DNA of 64,000 nucleotides from Planctomycetaceae bacterium. GTDB taxonomy: Bacteria; Planctomycetota; Planctomycetia; Planctomycetales; Planctomycetaceae. Shown piece by piece: positions 7,192-63,037 of the stretch. The notes under the pieces are model-generated. The model did no database searches and was not told the DNA's origin. It was given only the letters and a program-made list of their open reading frames with translations. The stretch covers positions 1-64,000 of the forward strand of contig JAIXZD010000413.1 in the NCBI GenBank assembly GCA_027489895.1, given 5' to 3'. How positions within the stretch are numbered: the stretch's first letter is position 1; every line of letters starts with the position of its first letter. Made by a program: the position numbers and the translations under genes.

Positions 7192-7244
7192 GCGAGCCGA
7201 CCCTGTCAGCCAGGTAGGGTGGGCACTGCCCACCACCGCTCACC
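7192..7244 (+). repeat. REP-B truncated at a REP-A copy
   Basis: REP-B sequence runs from 7192 to CTGTCAG at 7210, which is the middle of its palindrome. It is then replaced by CCA and, at 7214, by GTAG plus the palindrome GGTGGGCACTGCCCACC and ACCGCTCACC (REP-A, to 7244). The missing right half of REP-B suggests a junction created by insertion or recombination of REP-A. Confidence 0.7.
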
Positions 7245-7305
7245 CGTGAACAAACACCAAGCGACCTCTCCCCCGGCTTCAACCGATTCGGAAGTGTGCT
7301 TTTGC

Positions 7306-31520: not shown

Positions 31521-32474
31521 GTGACCAAACCAAAAAACCGTGGATTCACGCTGATTGAGTTGCTTGTGGTGATCGCCATTATCGCGATTCTAATTGCCCT
31601 GCTTCTGCCCGCCGTGCAACAGGCGCGCGAAGCCGCCCGGCGGACACAGTGCAAGAACGGCCTGAAACAGATCGGCCTGGCACTACACAACTACCACGAC
31701 ACGGCGCTCATTTTCCCGCCTGCTGGCACCCCGTACATGACACCCGTTAACCAGCACAACTACAACGAATACTTGCTCCCCTACGTCGATCAGTCGACCC
31801 TGTACAACCTGATCAACTTCAGCATTTCGTCCAACGCGGGCACCAACAACACCAATCTGGGGAACAGAACACTGACCTTCCAGATCTGCCCCAGCAACCC
31901 CTTCGGCGCGACTGCGGGCGGATACGACAACTGTCCTACGAACTCGCACGGTGCCAGCTACATGGTCTGCGCCGGCCCCGTGGCCTACCCGGGATTCAAC
32001 GCAGACACCTACTGCGGAGTGGTCGGTTCGCCCGCGTATTGCGTTGCGAACACGACCAACACGGTCCGATCGGGGATGTTCCCCATGGGCAACACGGCCC
32101 CTGCGTACTGCTGCAAGATCCGCGACATTACCGACGGTACGAGCAACACGATCGCGTTCGGCGAAGTCCGGCCCGAACTGAACACGTACTTCGGGATGTT
32201 CGGCGTCATGGCCAACGGGTTTTCCACGTCGATGCGCATCAACAGCCCCCGGCGTGTGAACGTCACGTCGTCGACCGTGCCCTCGACAGGTTATGCCGCG
32301 GTGGGAACTCCCAATGCATTGGGCCACAACGCGGGGATGTCGAGCTTCCATGTCGGCGGCGCGCATGTCACGCTGGCGGATGGCAGCGTGCGGTTCCTGA
32401 GCGAAAACTTGGACTTCGCCTTGTTCAACTACCTGGGCCACAAGTCCGATGGTCAAACCGTGGGCGAATTCTAA
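31521..32474 (+). CDS. DUF1559 prepilin-like protein
   Basis: A 317-aa secreted or pseudopilin-like protein of the planctomycete-expanded DUF1559 family. The type IV prepilin signal reads [20 protein letters not shown], with cleavage expected after the Gly before FTLIE. It is followed by [15 protein letters not shown] and the family motif [10 protein letters not shown]. The C-terminal H-x-DG motif is [20 protein letters not shown]. Several Cys in the middle probably form disulfides. GTG 31521 has GAGGAGAG upstream. It is followed 92 bases later by a small lipoprotein gene, a pairing often seen in this phylum. It is likely processed by a prepilin peptidase and exported by a type II/IV-pilus-like system; its task is unknown. 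Confidence 0.92.
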
Positions 32475-33333: not shown

Positions 33334-34986
33334 ATGCCCACCTCCCCGCGCGGCACACGTCGCAAAACCCACCCGTCGCCGTTTCGGCATCAGCTCGACG
33401 CGCTGCAGACAGGCCATGCCCTGCACCCATTGAGCAGTGCGAGGCCGCGTCGTCTGCATCTGGTCTTTGGGGATCAGCTCGATACACAGGCCCCCTCGTT
33501 ACTGGATCTCGATCGATCGCGCGACCTGCTGTTGCTCGTCGAGGTTCGGGCCGAGGCCGAGCATGTCCCGAGCCACAGGCAGCGAACGGCGCTGTTCCTG
33601 TCGGCCATGCGGCATTTTGCGCTCGAGCGCGCCTCCGAAGGGTTCGCCGTCGACTATGTCGCCCTCGACGATGCCGGGAACACGCAGACGTTTGATGGCG
33701 AGCTGCGTCGCGCCGTCGTCCGCCATCAACCCGCCGAACTCCATGTGGTCCGGTCGGGCGAATGGCGCGTCGAACAGATGGTCGATCACTGGGCCGAAAC
33801 GCTGGCCATACCGGTTAAGCGGCATGAGCCGGCCCATTTCTATCTGACCCCCTCCGAGTTCGCCGGCTGGGCGGCTGGCAGAAAAACCACGGTCCTTGAG
33901 TATTTCTACCGCTGGATGCGCACACGAGAACAGGTGCTGCTGGATGCGTCGGGACAGCCGGTCGGAGGCCGCTGGAACTTCGACCCGGAGAATCGGGAGG
34001 CGGTGACTTCCAAAACGACCTTACCCCAGCCGCCGTTGCGGTTCCCCCCAGATCCTGTGACGCAGGAGGTGCTCGACCTCGTCCGAGCGACGTGGCCAGA
34101 TGGATACGGTGATCTCGCGGCCTTTGCCTGGCCTGTCACCCGCTCCCAGGCGCAAGAGGCCCTCGACGATTTTGTAACGCACCGACTGGCCGACTTCGGT
34201 CGGTTTCAGGATGCGATGGTGACCGGTCAGCCCTGGATGAACCACTCGCTGCTCTCGCCGCTGCTGAACCTGCAACTGCTCGATCCGCGCCAGTGCGTCG
34301 CCGCGGCCGTCGATGCCTGGAATCGGGGTCTCGCGCCCCTCAACTCGGTCGAAGGGTTTGTTCGCCAGATTCTGGGCTGGCGGGAGTTCATCCGCGGCAT
34401 CTACTGGTTCGCTGGCCCCGAGTATGGCTCGGGCAATCATCTCGAATCCCACGGGCGTCTCCCCGACTGGTACTGGACCGGCGACGTCGACATGAACTGT
34501 CTACGTCAGTCACTGGGAGAGGTGCTGGCCCACGGCTACGGGCATCACATTCAGCGGCTGATGGTGACGGGGAATTTTGCCCTCACCGCGGGCATCCAAC
34601 CCCGCGCCATCAGCGACTGGTACCTCGCCATGTATGTCGACGCGGTCGACTGGGTGACGCTGCCCAACACCTTCGGAATGGTGATGCACGCCGACGGGGG
34701 CCAAGTCGGCACCAAACCATATGCCTCAACCGGGAAGTACATCGACCGGATGAGCGACTACTGCGACGGCTGCCGATACAAACCCGACCAGCGGACCGGT
34801 CCCGACGCCTGCCCGTTCACCACGTTCTACTGGGATTTTCTGGCTCGGAACGCGGACCGGTTCAAACGGAATCCACGCATGACGCTGATGCTGAAATCGC
34901 TCGAACGCCTGCCAGAGGCCGAGCAGACGGCCATCGCCCAGCACGCCGAAGCCCTGCGACAGCGTTACGGCATTACGCCAGGGTAG
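33334..34986 (+). CDS. Iron-sulfur photolyase/cryptochrome (PhrB, FeS-BCP type)
   Basis: A 550-aa member of the prokaryotic FeS cryptochrome/photolyase family, which repairs (6-4) UV photoproducts using FAD, a ribolumazine antenna and a [4Fe-4S] cluster. The antenna domain starts RRLHLVFGDQLD (about residue 40). The C-terminal FAD domain includes FVRQILGWREFIRGIYW and GIQPRAISDWYLAMYVDAVD. Cluster ligands are Cys 389 (MNCLRQ), 477 and 480 (YCDGC) and 493 (DACPF); the spacing 88-3-13 equals that of the characterised PhrB. The N-terminal ~35 residues before the fold are extra, so the start could be later than ATG 33334. The stop TAG is inside the GTAG head of REP-A. Confidence 0.92.
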   Translation: MPTSPRGTRRKTHPSPFRHQLDALQTGHALHPLSSARPRRLHLVFGDQLDTQAPSLLDLDRSRDLLLLVEVRAEAEHVPSHRQRTALFLSAMRHFALERASEGFAVDYVALDDAGNTQTFDGELRRAVVRHQPAELHVVRSGEWRVEQMVDHWAETLAIPVKRHEPAHFYLTPSEFAGWAAGRKTTVLEYFYRWMRTREQVLLDASGQPVGGRWNFDPENREAVTSKTTLPQPPLRFPPDPVTQEVLDLVRATWPDGYGDLAAFAWPVTRSQAQEALDDFVTHRLADFGRFQDAMVTGQPWMNHSLLSPLLNLQLLDPRQCVAAAVDAWNRGLAPLNSVEGFVRQILGWREFIRGIYWFAGPEYGSGNHLESHGRLPDWYWTGDVDMNCLRQSLGEVLAHGYGHHIQRLMVTGNFALTAGIQPRAISDWYLAMYVDAVDWVTLPNTFGMVMHADGGQVGTKPYASTGKYIDRMSDYCDGCRYKPDQRTGPDACPFTTFYWDFLARNADRFKRNPRMTLMLKSLERLPEAEQTAIAQHAEALRQRYGITPG

Positions 34987-35013
34987 GGTGGGCACTGCCC
35001 ACCACTGCTCACC
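34983..35013 (+). repeat. REP-A single copy fused to the photolyase stop codon
   Basis: GTAG, the palindrome GGTGGGCACTGCCCACC, then ACTGCTCACC. The following sequence (ACTGGATCGCTAGCC) resembles the interior of the paired element at 42332, so this looks like a left half without its right end. Confidence 0.85.
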
Positions 35014-35378
35014 CGTTCGGACCACCAGACGAAAACTGGATCGCTAGCCAGCAGGGCAATCGACAGTTCCCGTTCACGACTGAACAGGGCAGCCCGCGCC
35101 CAATCAGGGCAGGCATCATCAGGAAAACAAAAAACACGGCTTCGAGACGGCGAAGTGGAGGCGGGGGAAGGGAGATTTTGAAGGGAAGCGTAAGGTGGGT
35201 CTTGGTGGTGCTTAACGACAAGCGGGTCTCTCAGGTCCACTTCCCGACGCGAATGAACTGCGGGGTCCATTCACTGCACCGACTTCACTAACGTGCCTCG
35301 CGGTCTCCACCGCCTCGAAACCATGATCCTTCAAGTTCGTTCTGTTCGGGTCTCTTCACCCGGCGATTCATCAGCCCC
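34987..35378. other. Intergenic gap after the photolyase
   Basis: Apart from the REP-A half element, nothing recognisable is seen. Short frames on the minus strand have no ribosome-binding site or family features. Confidence 0.5.
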
Positions 35379-39723: not shown

Positions 39724-39865
39724 TGGTCCGTCTACAGGTCAATGTCAGGCAGAAAGAACAGGTCGGGCCTGCCCGACACCAACACTTTTGCCTTTTGACT
39801 TTTGCCTTTTGACTTGCTCCGTGCTGACGCAACCTGACACCAATCGATGGACGGAGCCTGAGGGG
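39720..39865. repeat. REP-G element with TTTTGAC/TTTTGCC heptads
   Basis: It opens with GTAGTGGTCCGTC (39720) and AATGTCAGGC. The central palindrome GTCGGGCCTGCCCGAC (39761-39776) is followed by heptads CTTTTGCC, TTTTGAC, TTTTGCC, TTTTGAC (39785-39812). The far end (CCTGACACCAATCGATGGAC) is roughly the inverse of the start. The full element recurs at 58876-59013, with partial ones at 56067 and 56938. Confidence 0.75.
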
Positions 39866-39876
39866 GTTTTGGTTCG

Positions 39877-40449
39877 ATGGCAGGCAGGTCCCGGGAATTG
39901 CTCGATCGGCGGTTGAGCCGCGTGGTCGTGATTGACCTGCAGGAACGGCTCGTCCCGGTCATCGCCGGTCGCGAAGAGCTGCTCGCCGACACTCGGCTGC
40001 TCATCGAAGGGGCCCGCGTGTGGGGTGTGCCGGTCACCTTGACCGAGCAGTACCCGCAAGGACTGGGGGGCACCGTCCCGGAGATTCGCGGACTGGTAGA
40101 CGACACTCCCCGCGAAAAACTGCGGATGAGCGCGGCCGACTGTCTGGCGTGGGGCCCCTCGTCGCAGGCCGAGCGGTCGCAGGTGGTTGTGGCGGGCATC
40201 GAAACGCACGTCTGCGTCCAGCAGACCGCGCTCGACCTGCTGGCCATCGGCTATCAGGTCTTCATCGCGGTCGATGCGGTGGGGACCCGTCATCCCCGCG
40301 ATCACGACGTGGCGCTCGCCCGATTGGCCAGTTCCGGGGCGACGCTGACGACCGTCGAATCGATCCTGTTCGAATGGGCCGAACAATCCGGCACCCCCGA
40401 GTTCAAACAGACCAGCGCCCTCGTCAAAGCCCGCTCCGCCCAGAGGTAG
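39877..40449 (+). CDS. Isochorismatase-like cysteine hydrolase
   Basis: A 190-aa member of the isochorismatase/nicotinamidase fold. The catalytic triad is readable: Asp 20 (VVVIDLQERL), Lys 91 (DTPREKLRMS) and nucleophile Cys 113 (VAGIETHVCVQQTALDLL). The last is the cis-peptide and Cys motif of the YcaC-like subgroup, members of which act on amides or remain unassigned. It is cytoplasmic, with no signal peptide. AGGGGG lies upstream of ATG 39877. It sits between two repeat elements and has no pathway neighbours, so the substrate cannot be deduced. The TAG stop is part of the GTAG of REP-A. Confidence 0.85.
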   Translation: MAGRSRELLDRRLSRVVVIDLQERLVPVIAGREELLADTRLLIEGARVWGVPVTLTEQYPQGLGGTVPEIRGLVDDTPREKLRMSAADCLAWGPSSQAERSQVVVAGIETHVCVQQTALDLLAIGYQVFIAVDAVGTRHPRDHDVALARLASSGATLTTVESILFEWAEQSGTPEFKQTSALVKARSAQR

Positions 40450-40624
40450 GGTGGGCACTGCCCACCAGCGCTCACCGGCCCCCATCCACGGACCCGCTCC
40501 TCGATCGCTCTCCAGCACTGGCCACATCGCGCCTGCCCAAAGTCGTTACGAGACCGGAGGAGCAGGGGGTGAGCGATCTGGTGTTTGTAGACGGGTGAGC
40601 ATTGGTGGGCAGTGCCCACCCTAC
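40446..40624. repeat. REP-A inverted pair (179 bp)
   Basis: The 31-bp left end (40446-40476) is GTAG, GGTGGGCACTGCCCACC and AGCGCTCACC. The right end (40594-40624) is its reverse complement with two differences. The interior is not coding. Another 179-bp pair with different interior sequence is at 42332. The left GTAG holds the stop codon of the isochorismatase gene. Confidence 0.9.
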
Positions 40625-40630
40625 CCACGC

Positions 40631-42220
40631 TTAGCGCAGCTCGCCCGACAGTTTGACGCCATCAAACGCGCCGTACAGTCCCTTGCCCAAGCGGATCGAC
40701 TTCCACCCGCGACTACTCGCGACGCGTTCAGCCAGCGGCCCGGTCAATTTGCTGCGGGCCAATTCCTTGCCGTCCTGTCGAATCACCAGCTCGTCGCCCG
40801 AGAGCACGAACTCGAAGCGAGTCGGGCCGGTGGTCCAGGCGGTGTTCGCGCCCAGATGGCCTGGGGCCGACAGCCGATAGACGGCTCCGTACGACTTCCA
40901 CTTCTCCGGGGCCAGAAACGGATTCTTCTCCGGCTCCCAAACGCAAGGATCTTTGGCCGAGGTCGAGACAAATAGATCCGGGCCGATCGTGACGAGACTC
41001 GTCACCCGCTGTCCCCACTGGTTGCTGACGGCGTTCCCCTTGTTCTCGACGTCGTAGGGGTGCGTGATCGCGGTCGATAGCTCCGGATGGGCGAACATTC
41101 GCCGGGCAAACGTCCACGCATCACGGTCGGGGTGATACCGCCACACCTCGCCCCAAGGCCAGACACCCACGTACAGCTCCCCGCCGTAGATGACGGTCGT
41201 CTGCGCCTCGCGGGAGGAACTGGAGACGCCCGGCAGCACCGGTGGCCAGCCCGCCCGGTCGACAATCTTCGCCCCGTCGTATTCGAAAATGCGACCGGTC
41301 GGATACTGCCCCATCACCAGGCGGTCGTTGAAGGCCATCGTCGAGTAGAGCTGGTAACTGACGGCCAGATTCGGGAGCAGCAAACGCGACCAGCGCTTGC
41401 CATCGAACACATAGAACCCGCCCACATTCGAACCAGTGACAACCTGCGTGCCGTACTGCCCCCACGCAAACGTCGTCTCGCCAACGATCGGCAGCGTATG
41501 CACCACCGCCCGGCCCAGATCGACCCGCTCTTCGCCCGGCTTCCACGGGCAGGCATACAGCTTGCTGAAGCCGTCATCGTCGCTCGTCCACGGCCTGTAG
41601 CCACCGTCGCGGCGGTTGATGTGATAAAAGCAGAGGTGTCCACGGGCATAGAAGAAGAGGACGTACGAACCCGACTCGGGATGATTGAGAATCGGCTCGC
41701 CCTTATAGAGCACGCTGCTCCCCGACCACTCCAGCAACCCATCGCCGACGCGCATCGCCTCGCGAGAATCGGCGTCCGGCTGCCAGGTGTTCGCCTGCGG
41801 GTCCCAGACTTTCGTGCCGCCAAACACCGACCGCAGCGTTTCATCGCGGCCGGTGAGATAGGTGCCGCACAGATCGTTGGGACGCGGTAGCTCGTCCGAA
41901 GTCACCACCCGGTCAGCGCTCGTCGAACGGACGAAGAACTGCACCGCATGCCGGTCCGCCCGGTAGTAGGTGTTGTACAGATTCTGGAAACCGGCCCCGA
42001 CAACAAGGTCCCCATCAGCCGAGGTCACTTCAAACAGCGAGCCGAAGCTTTGGCCGACATCTTCACCGCGATCAACCTCGATCGAGATCGTGGTGGCCGG
42101 CGGCTCGGCGCTGAGAACCGGCGAGCCGAACCAGAGCGTCAGACAGGCCAGCCCCAGTGCGGACCAGCGGGAACCGAACGAGTGTTGAATGGGCGTGACC
42201 GCGCGAAAGTCCATCGGCAT
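40631..42220 (-). CDS. Secreted beta-propeller-like protein of unknown function
   Basis: A 529-aa exported protein. The signal peptide (WSALGLACLTLWFGSPVLSA) supports ATG 42220, which has TGGAGA upstream. The body has repeating beta-rich blocks with Trp, Gly and Tyr, each reading like a propeller blade: GDLVVGAGFQNLYNTYYRAD, GGFYVFDGKRWSRL, GRIFEYDGAKIVDRAGWPP and YVGVWPWGEVWRYHPDRDAW. The last ~70 residues resemble a small jelly-roll or concluding beta domain (RFEFVLSGDELVIRQDGKEL). Kelch- or YncE-like folds are possible. No catalytic residues can be named. Possibly a carbohydrate- or surface-binding protein; this is inference from the fold only. Confidence 0.65.
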   Translation of the reverse strand: MPMDFRAVTPIQHSFGSRWSALGLACLTLWFGSPVLSAEPPATTISIEVDRGEDVGQSFGSLFEVTSADGDLVVGAGFQNLYNTYYRADRHAVQFFVRSTSADRVVTSDELPRPNDLCGTYLTGRDETLRSVFGGTKVWDPQANTWQPDADSREAMRVGDGLLEWSGSSVLYKGEPILNHPESGSYVLFFYARGHLCFYHINRRDGGYRPWTSDDDGFSKLYACPWKPGEERVDLGRAVVHTLPIVGETTFAWGQYGTQVVTGSNVGGFYVFDGKRWSRLLLPNLAVSYQLYSTMAFNDRLVMGQYPTGRIFEYDGAKIVDRAGWPPVLPGVSSSSREAQTTVIYGGELYVGVWPWGEVWRYHPDRDAWTFARRMFAHPELSTAITHPYDVENKGNAVSNQWGQRVTSLVTIGPDLFVSTSAKDPCVWEPEKNPFLAPEKWKSYGAVYRLSAPGHLGANTAWTTGPTRFEFVLSGDELVIRQDGKELARSKLTGPLAERVASSRGWKSIRLGKGLYGAFDGVKLSGELR

Positions 42221-42530
42221 GAAGCTGTCTCCAGGATGCGGTCGCGCGGCGCTAGCGACCTCCCGCATATCATGACGAAATCCCACCCCGGACGCACCCG
42301 CAGCGCTCTGCCCCACAAACGCCAGAACGCCGTAGGGTGGGCACTGCCCACCAAGCGCTCACCAGCACGGCCCACCAAAACCAAACTGGATCGCCAACCG
42401 ACTCTGACCGACTCTGGCGGAACAGCGGTTTGTCGGAATCGGTTGAAGCCGGGGGTGTGTGGAATGGTGGTTGGAAACTGGTGAGCAGTGGTGGGCAATG
42501 CCCACCCTACCCCCAGGGACGATGCCCGCG
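42221..42530. other. Intergenic gap filled by a REP-A pair
   Basis: No gene is supported. Most of the gap is the 179-bp REP-A element at 42332-42510. Confidence 0.7.
42332..42510. repeat. REP-A inverted pair (179 bp)
   Basis: Left end GTAG plus GGTGGGCACTGCCCACC and AAGCGCTCACC. The right end (42480-42510) is the inverse with a few changes (GGTGAGCAGTGGTGGGC ... CCCACCCTAC). The interior contains ACTGGATCGCCAACCGAC, which is shared with the single copies at 34983, 53390 and 56783. Confidence 0.9.
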
Positions 42531-43583: not shown

Positions 43584-43755
43584 GGCGACTGTCCTTGGAA
43601 CGGGCCCTCAAGTGGGCCTGGAAGATTGGAGAGAGACCCGAGGCGGAGAAGGCTCCTCGCTTTCGCCAGAGTGACCGCGCACCGCAACTCCGTCAACCAA
43701 GCTCCGGCAACCCGCACCGTCGTGGCCGTGCTTAAACGCGAGAGGATCAAGGGCT

Positions 43756-43903
43756 GTGCCATGCTTGCACCGTTTCGGGGCAAGCATGCCAAACATGCGA
43801 GAGCGCGGCCCCACACTCAGGACCGCATGGTTCCCGAATTTCGATTGCGAAGAGAGTCGAGGGCGGAGCGAATGCTTGCCCCGAAACGGTGCCAGCATGG
43901 CAC
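43756..43903. repeat. REP-F inverted pair (148 bp)
   Basis: The left copy (43756-43790) is GTGCCATGCTTGCACC with GTTTCGGGGCAAGCATGCC. The right copy (43871-43903) is its reverse complement (ATGCTTGCCCCGAAACGG, then TGCCAGCATGGCAC) with small changes. Confidence 0.85.
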
Positions 43904-43971: not shown

Positions 43972-44027
43972 CCAAAGAAAGACGCGAGGCGAAGACCAGG
44001 CCACGGACTGCCCGATCTTCGCCTCGC
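43972..44027 (-). terminator. Probable intrinsic terminator of the pilus-type gene set
   Basis: A perfect 12-bp stem GCGAGGCGAAGA with TCTTCGCCTCGC (43984-44027), with a 20-base loop, is followed on the minus strand by GTCTTTCTTTGGG. It lies 100 bases past the TPR/HEAT gene. Confidence 0.6.
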
Positions 44028-44127
44028 GGAAGACCCCGGATACTGGGTCGAGTTACCCGGGGAGTGTTCGTCTGGTGTTACCGTCCAGAGGGACCTCACG
44101 TTCCGACGAACGACTTATAAGAATGAT

Positions 44128-49714: not shown

Positions 49715-49874
49715 GTAGGGTGGGCACTGCCCACCAGCGCTCACCAGCCCCCAACCACCATTCGGCAGTTCTTCCCGCAGGTTGGCAAGGCGTGGTGGGG
49801 GACGCTGGTGAGCGGAAGAAATGAGGCTTGGTCGATGATCGCCGGTGAGCAAAGGTGGGCAGTGCCCACCCTAC
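49715..49874. repeat. REP-A inverted pair (160 bp)
   Basis: The left end (49715-49745) is GTAG, GGTGGGCACTGCCCACC and AGCGCTCACC. The right end (49844-49874) is its inverse (GGTGAGCAAAGGTGGGC ... CCCACCCTAC). The interior differs from the 179-bp elements. It ends 65 bases before coaD. Confidence 0.9.
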
Positions 49875-50457: not shown

Positions 50458-50487
50458 TTCGTCGAGGAGATACGAAAGGCGTTCTCA

Positions 50488-50516
50488 GGCGAGCCGACCC
50501 CGTCAGGGGTCGGTGG
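50488..50516 (+). repeat. REP-B single copy
   Basis: GGCGAGCCGACCCCGTC then AGGGGTCGGTGG. It differs from the other copies by one base in the loop region. Confidence 0.8.
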
Positions 50517-50567
50517 AACGCCCCCTCCCCCCCGCCCCCGCAGCAAACCGCGTCTCTTCCCAATTCT

Positions 50568-51947: not shown

Positions 51948-53393
51948 ATGGAGCGAGTTCGCGCGGTGAGCCGGTGGGCCTCAGTCCTCGTGGGCACCTT
52001 GGTTGCAGGGTTGGCCTCTGACCCCCAGACCAGCCTCGCCGCCGAGCGCCTGCCGAATGTCGTGCTCGTCTACTGCGACGATCTCGCCTACGCCGATGTC
52101 GCCTGCTTTCGCGACGCCGGTGCGACCGGCGTCGCCACGCCGCATCTCGATCGCCTGGCGAAAGACGGGATCCGGTTTACCGATTTCTATGTCGCCCAAG
52201 CGGTCTGCTCGGCCTCTCGCACCGCGCTGCTGACAGGCTGTTACCCCAACCGCGTCGGCATTCAGGGGGCGCTCGGTCCCGCCTCCAAAATCGGCATTCA
52301 TGCCGAAGAAACAACGCTCGGTGAGCTCTTCCAATCTCGGGGCTATCAGACCGCCTGCTTCGGCAAGTGGCACCTCGGCCATCTCCCGCAATTCCTTCCC
52401 GAACAGAACGGGTTCCACCGCTACTACGGGCTGCCCTACTCGAACGACATGTGGCCCAAACACCCGGAAGTGGGAAAGTCCTTTCCCGCGCTGCCCCTGA
52501 TCGCAGGCAGCCAGACGATTGCCCTCAATCCCGATCAACGCCTTCTGACCACCACCTACACCACCAAAGCCTGCGACTTCATCCGCGAGCACAAAGCGCA
52601 GCCGTTCTTCGTCTACGTGCCGCACACCATGCCGCATGTCCCGCTGTTCGTTTCCCCGGAGGGGGAAGGCCAGTCGGGCGCGGGATTGTTCGGAGACGTC
52701 ATTCGCGAGATCGATGAATCGGTCGGCCGGATCGTGGCCACCCTCGAGGAACAGGGACTGACCAACCAGACGCTCGTGATCTTCTCCTCGGACAACGGCC
52801 CCTGGCTGTCGTACGGAGATCACGCCGGGTCGGCCGGTCCACTCCGCGAAGGCAAAGGCACCACGTGGGATGGTGGTGTCCGCGTTCCGTTTCTCGCGAA
52901 ATGGCCCGAAAAAATCCCTGCGGGAGCCACCTGCACCGAGCCCGCCATGACGATCGACCTCCTGCCGACCCTGGCAAAACTCATCGCCGCGGAGTTACCC
53001 AAACACAAGATCGACGGGCTGGATATCGGCCCTCTGCTCACGGGCGAACCCAACGCCTCCTCGCCCCACGACGCACTCTTCTTCTATTGGGGCGAAGGGC
53101 TCGAGGCCGTTCGCTCAGGCCCCTGGAAGCTCCACTTTCCGCACGACTACCGCACCCTCGCCGGCGTCCCAAAGGCCACAGGTGGAGTTCCCGCGAAGTA
53201 CAAGCAGGCCAAAACGCCTTTGGCCCTCTACAACCTGTCGACCGATCGCGGCGAAGCAAACGATCTCGCGGCCCAACATCCCGATATCGTCGCCAAGCTG
53301 ACACACCTCGCCCAGGCCATGCGAACCGACCTCGGCGACACCCTCACCAAAACCCCAGGCACCGGCCACCGCGAACCCGGCCGCGCTCCGTAG
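51948..53393 (+). CDS. Secreted type I sulfatase
   Basis: A 481-aa exported sulfatase that removes sulfate esters from carbohydrates. Signal peptide: about residues 8-30, cut near SLAAER. LPNVVLVYCDDLAYADVACF provides the first metal-binding acids. The modification site VCSASRTALLTG (Cys 87) is the C-x-A/P-S-R motif converted to formylglycine by a maturation enzyme. KWHLGHLPQFLPEQNGF and the C-terminal FSSDNGPWLSYGDHAGS motif complete the active site. Substrate class unknown; many planctomycetes use large sets of these against algal sulfated polysaccharides. AGGAG lies upstream of ATG 51948. The TAG stop comes from the GTAG head of REP-A. Confidence 0.93.
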   Translation: MERVRAVSRWASVLVGTLVAGLASDPQTSLAAERLPNVVLVYCDDLAYADVACFRDAGATGVATPHLDRLAKDGIRFTDFYVAQAVCSASRTALLTGCYPNRVGIQGALGPASKIGIHAEETTLGELFQSRGYQTACFGKWHLGHLPQFLPEQNGFHRYYGLPYSNDMWPKHPEVGKSFPALPLIAGSQTIALNPDQRLLTTTYTTKACDFIREHKAQPFFVYVPHTMPHVPLFVSPEGEGQSGAGLFGDVIREIDESVGRIVATLEEQGLTNQTLVIFSSDNGPWLSYGDHAGSAGPLREGKGTTWDGGVRVPFLAKWPEKIPAGATCTEPAMTIDLLPTLAKLIAAELPKHKIDGLDIGPLLTGEPNASSPHDALFFYWGEGLEAVRSGPWKLHFPHDYRTLAGVPKATGGVPAKYKQAKTPLALYNLSTDRGEANDLAAQHPDIVAKLTHLAQAMRTDLGDTLTKTPGTGHREPGRAP

Positions 53394-53420
53394 GGTGGGC
53401 ACTGCCCACCAATGCTCACC
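53390..53420 (+). repeat. REP-A single copy fused to the sulfatase stop codon
   Basis: GTAG, GGTGGGCACTGCCCACC and AATGCTCACC. GGATCGCCAACCGACG follows, as in the interior of the 42332 element. Confidence 0.85.
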
Positions 53421-53486
53421 AGCACAGTCCACCACACAACATTTGGATCGCCAACCGACGCGAACCGAACTCAACAGGGACAAAAA

Positions 53487-55963: not shown

Positions 55964-55982
55964 ACCCCGTCAAAACAGCCGA

Positions 55983-56011
55983 GGCGAGCCGACCCTGTCA
56001 GGGGTCGGTGG
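55983..56011 (+). repeat. REP-B single copy
   Basis: GGCGAGCCGACCCTGTC then AGGGGTCGGTGG, identical to the left arm at 2289. Confidence 0.85.
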
Positions 56012-56066
56012 AATCCTGCGATTCGTGGGGAACCGTCCATCAACCGATCCCTGTCCGTCAAAAGAA

Positions 56067-56117
56067 CAGGTCGGGCCTGCCCGACACCCTCACTTTTGCC
56101 TTTTGACTTTTGACTTG
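56067..56117 (+). repeat. REP-G core with heptads
   Basis: CAGGTCGGGCCTGCCCGAC at 56067, then ACTTTTGCC, TTTTGAC and TTTTGAC to 56117. The flanking outer ends of the full element are not evident. Confidence 0.75.
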
Positions 56118-56129
56118 CCTCCTCCCCCC

Positions 56130-56786
56130 ATGTTCGCAGTCATCTTCGACGTCGATGGCGTCCTCGTCGATTCCTACGACGCCCACTTCCGGAGTTGGCG
56201 GGACATGGCCCGCGAGGTCGGCCGCGAGTTGACGTCCGAGCAGTTCGCCACGACGTTCGGGCGGACCAGTCGCGAGATCATCGAACATCACTGGGGCCAG
56301 GGCGCGCTCTCGCCCGCCGAGATCAAGGCCTTCGATGACCGCAAAGAGGCGCTCTACCGCGACCTCGTCTGGAATGCCTTTCCCGCGATGGACGGGGCCC
56401 GCGAACTGATCGCCGCGCTCCACGCCGCAGGCATGCCGCTGGCGGTAGGCTCTTCGGGACCGCCCGAGAACGTCGCCCTGGCGATCGATCGACTGGAAGC
56501 CAACGCCTGCATTCAGGCCCGAGTCACCGGCCAGGACGTCACCCGCGGCAAGCCCGACCCGGAAGTGTTTCTGCTGGCCGCAAAGAAGTTAGGGGTCGCC
56601 CCCAGCGCCTGTGCCGTCATCGAAGACGCCCCGGCCGGAATCGCCGCCGCCAACGCCGCAGGCATGCTCAGCATCGCCCTGCAAAGCACCGGCCACACCC
56701 CGGAAGACGCCCGCGAAGCCGACCACGTCATCCACTCGCTCCGCGAACTCTCCCCCGCCCTCATCGCCCGGTGGATCAACCCGTAG
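56130..56786 (+). CDS. HAD-family phosphatase (beta-phosphoglucomutase-like)
   Basis: A 218-aa haloacid dehalogenase hydrolase. Motif I is FDVDGVLVDS (Asp nucleophile at residue 7, acid at 9). A helical C1 cap follows. Motif II is AVGSSGPPENV, motif III Lys in TRGKPDPEVFLLAAKKLG, and motif IV VIEDAPAGIAAANAAGM. This set is typical of subfamily IA phosphatases and phosphomutases such as beta-phosphoglucomutase or phosphoglycolate phosphatase; substrate not determinable. ATG 56130 begins directly at the fold. The TAG stop lies in the GTAG of REP-A. Not linked to pathway genes. Confidence 0.9.
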   Translation: MFAVIFDVDGVLVDSYDAHFRSWRDMAREVGRELTSEQFATTFGRTSREIIEHHWGQGALSPAEIKAFDDRKEALYRDLVWNAFPAMDGARELIAALHAAGMPLAVGSSGPPENVALAIDRLEANACIQARVTGQDVTRGKPDPEVFLLAAKKLGVAPSACAVIEDAPAGIAAANAAGMLSIALQSTGHTPEDAREADHVIHSLRELSPALIARWINP

Positions 56787-56813
56787 GGTGGGCACTGCCC
56801 ACCAGCGCTCACC
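56783..56813 (+). repeat. REP-A single copy fused to the HAD gene stop codon
   Basis: GTAG, GGTGGGCACTGCCCACC and AGCGCTCACC, followed by CTGGATCGCCCATTGG. Confidence 0.85.
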
Positions 56814-56937
56814 AACCCGGCCCACTAGAAATCATCTGGATCGCCCATTGGCGCGGCCAAAAGAACCGGCGGCAACATCTGTTGAAGCCGGGGGCAAAGC
56901 GTCTGGTGATCAAAAACGGGCGAGCCGGCAAAAGGAA

Positions 56938-56986
56938 CAGGTCGGGCACGCCCGACACCATCACTTTTGACTTTTGACTTTTGCCT
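56938..56986 (+). repeat. REP-G core with heptads
   Basis: CAGGTCGGGCACGCCCGAC, then ACTTTTGAC, TTTTGAC and TTTTGCC. The palindrome centre differs from the other copies (AC in place of CT) but the arms still pair. Confidence 0.75.
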
Positions 56987-57029
56987 TACTCCCCGCAAAC
57001 GCCCCCTGCCACCAATCGACGCCTTGAGC

Positions 57030-58235
57030 CTAAGCTCCATACTTCTCGAATCGACCGGCGTGCGCCATCGCCAGCGACATCAGGTACTTCGCCTCGAACT
57101 GCCCCAGCCCGCCCTGCAGGCAGGTCGATTCGCTGAATTCCGTGGCCGCATCGGTCCGGCAGGTGTCCGCCGCCAGCAGCACCGGTACCGGGTGCCAACT
57201 GTGCGACTTCATCTTGCTCGGCGTGCTGTGGTCGCCCGTCACGATCAGCACCGTCGGCCCCAGCTTGGTGATCTTGGGCATCGCGGCATCAAGCTGCTCG
57301 ATCCGTTCGACCTTGGCCGGGAAGTTGCCGTCTTCGCCCGTCGAGTCGGTGTACTTGTAGTGCAGGAAGAAGAAGTCGTAGTCGTTCCAGACTGCTTCCA
57401 GACGGGCACATTGGTCGTCCAGCGTCTGGCCGGCATCGAGCACGTTCATGCTGACGAGCCGGGCCAGGCCCCGGTACATCGGGTAGACGGCGATCGCCGC
57501 GGCCCGCAGTCCATACAACTCTTCAAACGTGGGAATCGAAGGCCGCTTGTCGATCCCGCGCATCGTGAAAAAGTTGGCCGGGGCATCGTTCTTCAGCACC
57601 TCGCGAGCCTGCGCGAGGAACGCCTTGGCGATCTCCGCCGTCTTCTGCGAGGCAGCGTCGCGGGCGACCGGGTCGAGCGGAGCCACGCCGGTCTTTTGCG
57701 GGTCGGTGTCTTCAACGTTCCCGCCCAAGCCTTCCCCACGGAAGACGACCACCAGGCGATACTCTTTCACCGGGCGAACGAACACCTCGACGCCCGGAAT
57801 CTTGATCTGGTCGAGCTTCGCGCACAGCTTGGCACCAATCTCGCTGGCGATCCGCCCCGCCCGGCGATCAGTGATGATCCCCGCCTCATTCAGCGTGCAG
57901 AAGTTGCCACGAATCGCGACATCGTTCGGGCCCAGGTCAAAGTCGATGCCCAGCGCTTCCAGCACCCCGCGGCCAATCTGAAACTGAAGCGGGTCATACC
58001 CGAACAACCCCAGATGGCCCGGCCCAGAACCCGGCGTGATGCCCGGCAGCACCGGCGTGCTCAGGCCCAGCACGCCATTTTTCGCCAGCGTATCGAGGTT
58101 CGGCGTCTTCGCGGATTCCAGTTCCGTCTTGCCACCCGGAGCAAGCGGCAGCCCCCCCAGACCATCCGCCACGCACAGCACGATCTTCGATTCATTCTTG
58201 ATCGCCAGTTTCTTCACCAGATCGTGCAAATCCAT
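57030..58235 (-). CDS. 2,3-bisphosphoglycerate-independent phosphoglycerate mutase (ApgM type)
   Basis: A 401-aa glycolytic enzyme interconverting 3- and 2-phosphoglycerate, of the archaeal-type cofactor-independent family related to alkaline phosphatase. IVLCVADGLGGLPL has a metal-binding Asp, ITPGSGPGHLGLFGYDP the phosphorylated Ser, and VLIVTGDHSTPSKMKSHSWH the second metal cluster (Asp-His ... His). RGNFCTLNEAGIITDRRAGR is a typical substrate loop. Length fits the family. ATG 58235 was chosen over an upstream extension that lacks conserved sequence. It is convergent with the HAD gene; only repeats lie between them. Confidence 0.92.
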   Translation of the reverse strand: MDLHDLVKKLAIKNESKIVLCVADGLGGLPLAPGGKTELESAKTPNLDTLAKNGVLGLSTPVLPGITPGSGPGHLGLFGYDPLQFQIGRGVLEALGIDFDLGPNDVAIRGNFCTLNEAGIITDRRAGRIASEIGAKLCAKLDQIKIPGVEVFVRPVKEYRLVVVFRGEGLGGNVEDTDPQKTGVAPLDPVARDAASQKTAEIAKAFLAQAREVLKNDAPANFFTMRGIDKRPSIPTFEELYGLRAAAIAVYPMYRGLARLVSMNVLDAGQTLDDQCARLEAVWNDYDFFFLHYKYTDSTGEDGNFPAKVERIEQLDAAMPKITKLGPTVLIVTGDHSTPSKMKSHSWHPVPVLLAADTCRTDAATEFSESTCLQGGLGQFEAKYLMSLAMAHAGRFEKYGA

Positions 58236-58875: not shown

Positions 58876-59013
58876 GTAGTCCGTCGACCAATCAATGTCA
58901 GGCAAAAAACAGGTCGGGCCTGCCCGACACCATCACTTTTGACTTTCGACTTTTGCCTTTTGACTTGCTCAGTGCTGACGCAGCCTGACATCGATCGACG
59001 GACGGAGCCCTAC
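58876..59013. repeat. REP-G full element fused to the fabI stop codon
   Basis: The left end is GTAGTCCGTCGACC ... AATGTCAGGC (58876-58903). The palindrome GTCGGGCCTGCCCGAC is at 58912-58927, and heptads TTTTGAC/TTTCGAC/TTTTGCC/TTTTGAC follow. The right end, read on the minus strand, is GTAGGGCTCCGTCCGTCG ... ATGTCAGGC. The minus-strand GTAG (59010-59013) contains the fabI stop. Confidence 0.8.
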
Positions 59014-59874: not shown

Positions 59875-60798
59875 CTAAAACTCGCCCAGCAGTTCGCCCC
59901 CAGCACGGGTCGAAAGATTCTGATAGAGCTGAAAGTCGATGTTTTCGGAGAGACCGCGAACACTGCCATCGCCCAACAGAAAATTGGCATAGCCCACATG
60001 CGGCGCGGAGACATCCCGGTCGTCGCTCTCCGCATTGTTCGGCGGATGGCCCGTCTGAAACAACGTCATGTGCCCATGGTCGTCGTCGGGTTCGTCCCAG
60101 TCGCGAATCGACCCGGCCCACGCCGTCTCATAAGAGAAGTGATTCCCGTGAATCGCCCCGTTGCGAAACGGGCCGTTCTGCCGTTCGCCACACATCAAGG
60201 TGTTCGTGAGACCATCGGTCACATCCGTAAACCGCGTGCGGCTGTTGCGACTGAAGAGGCCCAGTCGCTGTTCCTGAACCAGATCGAGATCCGGCGGGCC
60301 AAACGACCCGACATAACTGCACATCGCATAACGTTCCGGGGCCGGCCCCATCTCGACAAAGTCGTTGGACGAGACCGTGTCCGTCGGGCAGATAAACACC
60401 GCCAGATGAATCTCCCGCGCCGCCTGGTTCGCCCCCGCATACAGCGGCACATTCCAGTTGAACTGACCATACAGGGGGGCCTGTTCGACGAATGGCAGCA
60501 CCATCGCCCCCCACCCAAACCCCGCTCCATTACTGACAGGGGATGTCGACGATTCGGGCCGGTAAATGTAACCCGGTGGCAGCGTGCGATGTGTGTCGTG
60601 GTAGTTGTGCAGGGCGAGGCCCAACTGTTTCAGATGGTCCCTGCACTGCGTACGCCGCGCCGCCTCCCGCGCCTGCTGAACCGCAGGCAGCAACAGCGCC
60701 ACGAGAATCGCAATGATCGCGATCACCACCAGCAGCTCGATCAGCGTGAAGCCACGTCTGTCGGTCGTTCGGTGGCGTGATTCGGCGAATTCCGTCAT
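59875..60798 (-). CDS. DUF1559 prepilin-like protein
   Basis: A 307-aa protein of the same family as the gene at 31521. The prepilin signal [20 protein letters not shown] is followed by [20 protein letters not shown] and [20 protein letters not shown]. The C-terminal motif is VGYANFLLGDGSVRGLSENI. Between them lie the GWGAMVLPFVEQAPLYGQFN and DVTDGLTNTLMCGERQ blocks. CAGAGGACGAG precedes ATG 60798. Unlike the first copy it has no small lipoprotein beside it. Exported and processed by a prepilin peptidase; function unknown. Confidence 0.92.
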   Translation of the reverse strand: MTEFAESRHRTTDRRGFTLIELLVVIAIIAILVALLLPAVQQAREAARRTQCRDHLKQLGLALHNYHDTHRTLPPGYIYRPESSTSPVSNGAGFGWGAMVLPFVEQAPLYGQFNWNVPLYAGANQAAREIHLAVFICPTDTVSSNDFVEMGPAPERYAMCSYVGSFGPPDLDLVQEQRLGLFSRNSRTRFTDVTDGLTNTLMCGERQNGPFRNGAIHGNHFSYETAWAGSIRDWDEPDDDHGHMTLFQTGHPPNNAESDDRDVSAPHVGYANFLLGDGSVRGLSENIDFQLYQNLSTRAGGELLGEF

Positions 60799-60931
60799 CT
60801 CGTCCTCTGCCAAGGCGGGCCTGCAATAGACCACAAGAGTGTAGCGGCAAGTCCGCCACCAACCCACTTCACGTCACCCCAGGGTCATCGCTCTATTCAC
60901 GATGGCACAAGACGCGAGGCAACCAAGTGGT

Positions 60932-60966
60932 GTGCCATGCTTGCACCGCTTCGGGGCAAGCATGCC
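60932..60966 (+). repeat. REP-F single copy
   Basis: GTGCCATGCTTGCACC, then GCTTCGGGGCAAGCATGCC; one base differs from the other copies. CGACCGTGGGTTG follows, similar to the text after the copy at 62909. Confidence 0.8.
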
Positions 60967-61168
60967 GACCGTGGGTTGATCTGGCACGAACGAAAGCCGC
61001 GTCTTTCCTGAAACTCGACGGTGAAAATCGAGAGCCGCTCGCCTGTTAGCCCCGCAAAGCCGGCGCACGCAGGGCACACCGACTTCACACCAGCGTCTTC
61101 CACAAGGCGAAATCCCGGTCCGCGACCTAACAGCCCGTTAGAAAACTGTTCCATGGCGAATTCGTCGT

Positions 61169-62785: not shown

Positions 62786-62808
62786 GCCTCATCTCCCTGG
62801 AAGCGTCA

Positions 62809-62837
62809 GGCGAGCCGACCCTGTCAGGGGTCGGTGG
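62809..62837 (+). repeat. REP-B single copy
   Basis: GGCGAGCCGACCCTGTC then AGGGGTCGGTGG, 23 bases after the xylA stop; the hairpin could help end transcription. Confidence 0.85.
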
Positions 62838-62908
62838 TACCCGCGCGCCCCTCTGGCACCCCGCGCTCCATTCTCAGATGCGAGCGTGGGGTCAGTCAGA
62901 GGGCGCGC

Positions 62909-62943
62909 GTGCCATGCTTGCACCGTTTCGGGGCAAGCATGCC
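62909..62943 (+). repeat. REP-F single copy
   Basis: GTGCCATGCTTGCACC with GTTTCGGGGCAAGCATGCC, identical to the copy at 43756. Confidence 0.8.
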
Positions 62944-63037
62944 GACCGTGGGGTAGCGTGGCATCAACGAAGACCGCCGACTTCCCTGAATTCGACAACG
63001 AAGAACGTCGCGAGCCGCTCGCGCACTCCCGCCGCGC

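Follow-up and report, generated by a model that had tools for sequence, protein, structure and literature searches.

The paired elements at positions 40446-40624 and 42332-42510 of a planctomycete contig are head-to-head dimers of a GTAG-type REP with the layout of a REPIN or BIME. They are very probably REPINs, non-autonomous dimers that are dispersed in trans by a RAYT. RAYTs are REP-associated tyrosine transposases of the Y1/HUH type. The 64,000 nucleotides analysed here (the window) are part of contig C236 of a 5.93-Mb genome that is assembled in 575 contigs, is 93% complete and, by its relatives, is probably that of a planctomycete. Its pair and position statistics derive from a 1.42-Mb sample in which contigs with motif matches are over-represented. 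In the proposed mechanism, an inverted REP pair would fold into a hairpin when single-stranded, and the RAYT would cut near the REP ends and mobilise both REPs together with their spacer, a segment that here measures about 150-190 bp. The interiors of the copies would drift afterwards, with the ends staying intact, and decay would proceed either by loss of one end or by collapse to a palindrome of 25 bp with a tag at either end.

Anatomy of the paired elements

Each element end consists of the tag GTAG followed by the palindrome GGTGGGCACTGCCCACC and by ANNGCTCACC, with a conserved GCTCACC after the palindrome. Because the first 21 nt form a tagged palindrome, each end is itself a REP, and since the right ends are inverted copies, both GTAG tags point outward. 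Reading of the sequence confirmed that the first two elements are each 179 bp long and the third (49715-49874) 160 bp, and that their 31-nt ends are inverted and near-identical. The single tagged ends reported at 34983, 53390 and 56783 are also present, and a further single at 7214, of the other arm type, had been overlooked. The features of the window are as follows (the AB family, with its arms A and B, and the second subfamily are described in the next section).

40446..40624, head-to-head REP dimer of 179 bp, AB family (diverged); left REP 40446-40466, right REP 40604-40624, inverted
42332..42510, head-to-head REP dimer of 179 bp, AB family; left REP 42332-42352, right REP 42490-42510
49715..49874, head-to-head REP dimer of 160 bp, second subfamily; left REP 49715-49735, right REP 49854-49874
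34983..35057, + strand, single REP with arm A only (half copy)
53390..53467, + strand, single REP with arm A only (half copy)
56783..56926, + strand, near-complete AB element without the right REP, profile positions 1-150 of 173
7214..7303, + strand, single REP with arm B only
34984..34986, + strand, tag TAG that is the stop codon of a photolyase-related gene (33334-34986)
40447..40449, + strand, tag TAG that is the stop codon of an isochorismatase-family gene (39877-40449)
53391..53393, + strand, tag TAG that is the stop codon of a sulfatase gene (51948-53393)
56784..56786, + strand, tag TAG that is the stop codon of a HAD-family hydrolase gene (56025-56786)

Genome-wide, the REP motif matched 183 times in forward and 158 times in reverse orientation with up to two mismatches (~340 near-copies in 5.93 Mb), and a reversed control motif gave no match in the genome in the same search. 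This high copy number and the extragenic location are those of GTAG REPs, which are defined by a tag directly before a perfect or imperfect palindrome of 20-40 nt; 119 of 149 core sites are perfect palindromes. The 1.42-Mb sample contains 131 singly tagged REPs and six double-tagged 25-bp palindromes, two of which are degenerate. Hairpins tagged with GTAG numbered 264, versus 31-49 for five control tags, and the remaining three control tags gave 49, 80 and 117, in counts that partly re-read known REPs. The density of REPs is uneven among contigs, with 2 REPs in 248 kb on contigs numbered above C400 and 25 in 503 kb on C237-C400.

The sample holds 38 head-to-head pairs of 152-220 bp (median 172, s.d. 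13.8), where 0.2 would be expected by chance, and two wider pairs of 324 and 355 bp. There were no head-to-tail REP pairs below 400 bp in the 1.42-Mb sample and the nearest tail-to-tail pair spans 302 bp; below 300 bp, head-to-head is the only orientation. Distances between inverted copies are thus clustered; the broad, random spread that would have refuted the original prediction was not seen. Its further assumption of a constant length was not borne out: lengths are clustered and not fixed, and they vary between genomes. Because the pairs cluster over 152-220 bp and 4 of 38 measure 179 bp (5 of 38 measure 160 bp), the length shared by the two 179-bp elements is a coincidence, and the genome-wide distribution of pair lengths rules out a fixed unit length.

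Interiors, folding and single copies

Orientation and alignment placed 26 elements in a single asymmetric family (AB), with GGATCGC in arm A and GAAGC-CGG in arm B, the latter being CCGGCTTCAAC when read from the opposite strand; the element at 42332..42510 has both motifs in these positions. Mean pairwise identity within the family is 99% for the REPs, 84% for the extension and 92% for GGATCGC, but about 50% for the arms and 33% for the centre; outside two short motifs the interior is 33-54% identical. The interiors had been described as mostly different, and they are indeed diverged, with the 49715 element in another subfamily, but homology links the interior of 40446 to that of 42332: their alignment has matches at 61 of 116 interior positions, and its score of 12 lies above that of shuffled sequences (-6.9 +/- 4.9, best of 300 = 7.5), which rules out unrelated interiors. 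The second subfamily, which includes 49715, has seven sampled members that are 84% identical overall, five of them exactly 160 bp long.

The predicted folds contain strong hairpins (z -6.2 to -8.1), but in the AB alignment none of the 29 consensus pairs of the spacer hairpin is changed on both sides. The region gave a single sub-threshold Rfam match, at 43978-44067 (E = 0.39), which we regard as chance. As covariation was absent and the Rfam search assigned the region to no family, a conserved structured RNA in the interior was ruled out; the conserved feature is the end sequence, not the interior fold.

In the profile comparison, most single REPs match one arm only. The window's half copies had been described as left halves without right ends; for 56783 this holds for the right REP, but the element retains most of its second arm. 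Singles are more diverged than doublets, with a mean of 0.31 versus 0.18 mismatches, as is characteristic of REPINs, and the GCTCACC extension is exact in 38 of 55 singles versus 70 of 76 paired ends. Extra mismatches and frequent loss of the extension are what remnants would show, and the comparison of these sequences thus supports the original suggestion that the half copies are decayed pairs. The 25-bp forms, in which GTAG, palindrome and CTAC follow one another, would fit a deletion between both palindromes of one dimer.

Position at gene ends and stop codons

At least one gene runs toward the element in 37 of the 38 pairs, and 21 of 38 lie between convergent genes, as does the dimer at 40446..40624 in the window. 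A gene converges on 96 tagged ends: in 40 of them the tag TAG is the stop codon of that gene, in 51 the stop lies upstream, and in 5 the reading frame enters the element. The REP-terminated proteins tested are not truncated: the ends of the sulfatase and the photolyase coincide with those of their orthologues, and nine others, each with a family match of the full-length type, end within 8 positions of the profile end. GTAG is occupied by a REP in 38 of 219 cases at stop codons and in 43 of 204 cases up to 60 nt downstream (Fisher p = 0.39), rates that are only relative because the sample is enriched for REPs. Such equal occupancy at and past stops is what targeting of pre-existing GTAG would give. 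These findings hint that the elements enter at a GTAG (CTAC on the opposite strand) that was already present, in many cases at a TAG stop codon. We tentatively propose, as a reading that may well need revision, that a TAG stop preceded by G serves as a safe harbour, of which about 1/6 are colonised in the sample, with the protein left unchanged. TAG stops are common in this G+C-rich genome, ending 397 of the 1079 genes scored in the sample, and some of them are supplied by REPs.

A somewhat doubtful alternative is that the stops arose after insertion, with elements landing anywhere near gene ends and the survivors being those that supply an in-frame TAG or replace a lost stop. Such selection would give a peak at the tag, and it permits an element to have a stop at each end. 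Double stops of this kind occur in two pairs (L055:7220-7407 and L080:1840-1999) and probably in one collapsed copy (L040:2747-2771), and they are poorly explained by a one-ended target model. The ratio of stop-at-tag to read-through, 40:5, argues against this alternative, since 1:2 is expected for random insertion with in-frame stops in the absence of selection (p about 1e-14), as do the C-terminal ends of the sulfatase, the photolyase and the nine further proteins above and the similar occupancy of GTAG at stops and downstream.

It is also rather unlikely that these, whatever mobile source they came from, are 3' elements maintained by the host, GC-rich hairpins after the stop that now act as barriers to transcription or mRNA decay and whose ends are kept by host selection. 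The ends are 99% identical over diverged interiors, the hairpins are predicted to be strong, and nearly all pairs face an incoming gene, more than half of them two. However, the hairpins read in the sequence have no U-run after them, the interior lacks covariation, and conservation of the GTAG tag is explained by recognition by a transposase and not by a terminator. Moreover, the elements were not found at the orthologous genes examined in relatives. Empty sites were likewise not found: the 34 relatives of the 561-aa gene that lies between both elements, and the orthologues of two other flanking genes, have no synteny to the window.

RAYT genes, relatives and known systems

The REP is present at up to one mismatch in 13 of 59 related genomes, and its pairs have genome-specific lengths, of about 55 bp in G051 (n=20), 87 bp in G015 (n=10) and 76 bp in G050 (n=4). 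In one relative (G046, locus L182), a Y1-type RAYT gene starts within about 35 bp of GTAGGGTGGGCACCGCCCACC and has a degenerate inverted REP copy just past its stop. The window's own genome has six Y1 genes, none of which carries the window REP within the 1.5 kb of flank examined, and no cognate RAYT was accordingly recognised among them; three of the six lie near contig ends of the 93% complete assembly. Contig C304 bears the one RAYT of the L182 clade that is intact in this genome; a sibling REP, GTAGGGCAGGCTCCCGCCTGCC, lies on both sides of it, and a decayed second copy of its clade is found on C78. The 13 homologues at L202-L214 each have one or both flanks with a GTAGG-tagged palindrome, GTAGGG in 11 of 13. 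In one of them (L211; G062 C1:572980-573795), the stretch downstream of an intact RAYT contains pieces of the RAYT C-terminus that recur together with REPs at a period of about 221 bp, resembling the case of a RAYT end within a BIME in Nunvar 2010.

Since the REP flanks a RAYT in a relative and sibling REPs lie beside RAYTs, the window REP belongs to the RAYT-linked class, and we infer that a RAYT moved this family. The original proposal that the pairs are mobilised as a unit finds support in the strict head-to-head orientation, the clustered spacing, the high copy number, the absence from the orthologous genes examined and the RAYT-flanking REP of the relative. Ordinary MITEs of a DDE-type insertion sequence are likewise small, high-copy, bounded by short terminal inverted repeats and without coding capacity, but this origin is highly improbable, as the ends are tagged palindromes and not plain terminal repeats, the flanks read show no target duplication, and the window REP flanks the RAYT gene at L182. 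If this genome, once closed, had no GTAGGGTGGGCACTGCCCACC-flanked RAYT, the family would either have lost its mobility or be moved by the C304 enzyme.

REPINs were defined in Pseudomonas fluorescens SBW25 by Bertels and Rainey 2011 (PMC3116915), who argued that singlets are remnants. The window elements share with them inverted REP doublets, invariant ends, variable spacers, clustered spacing, hairpin potential and singlets that are more diverged than doublets, but are longer (median 172 bp). Compensatory spacer changes are also reported for SBW25 REPINs, where they are said to be common, and the alignment of the window family has none; such changes are not part of the REPIN definition. Di Nocera et al. 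2013 (PMC3733652) described GTAG REPs, with Planctomycetes including R. baltica among their hosts, and also head-to-head dimers, a location 3' of genes and between convergent genes, and use of the tag TAG as a stop codon. Their families are like ours in tag, palindromic stem, dimer orientation, location and TAG stops, whereas their spacers are mostly 20-100 bp and those of the window family measure about 110-150 bp and contain conserved motifs that are placed asymmetrically; the comparison with their planctomycete family draws on its description. Nunvar et al. 2010 (PMC2817692) listed GTAGGGTGGGCTTcAGCCCACC for Haemophilus influenzae, a REP with the same tag and the same seven-base stem (GGTGGGC/GCCCACC); the loops are unlike (TTc + A versus ACT), and it comes from another phylum. 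The L182 gene, with its REP and degenerate inverted copy, resembles a REPtron (Nunvar 2010, PMC8266576), the term for a RAYT gene with REPs at its borders, whereas the only intact RAYT of that clade in the window's genome bears the sibling REP. The tag has been considered a possible guide for cleavage at CT (PMC8266576). The window elements agree with this body of work. A text search of the literature for the motif GTAGGGTGGGCA returned unrelated papers only.

Publications thus already cover GTAG REPs in Planctomycetes, head-to-head dimers and TAG stops, and the elements are ordinary in kind and unusually clear here. They extend the REPIN/RAYT system by a planctomycete genome for which the statistics are good, show one REP sequence used at different pair lengths in different genera, and offer a quantitative hint on the landing sites of RAYT-moved elements in the equal occupancy of GTAG stops and nearby GTAG.

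Other repeats were also observed. A second abundant family of GTAG-tagged hairpins, GTAGCGGAA(GC/CT/CG)..., has about 110 copies in 1.19 Mb of the sample (for example L095:13687, L129:11163 and L093:17694). The window contains a repeat family, TGCCATGCTTGCACCGNTTCGGGGCAAGCATG, at 43736-43903, 60912-60973 and 62889-62950, in one case as two inverted copies separated by 84 nt; on contig C335 of the same genome this repeat flanks a different Y1 transposase gene. A palindromic repeat, GGCGAGCCGACCCTGTCAGGGGTCGGTGG, lies at 50485-50539, 55980-56034 and 62806-62860 and is present on many other contigs. Four copies of a 106-nt direct repeat occur at 39753-39858, 56061-56166, 56932-57037 and 58904-59009, two of them 92% identical and two 60-65%. 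Finally, a 164-nt inverted repeat at 31539-31702 and 60593-60756 is 80% complementary over a distance of 29 kb.
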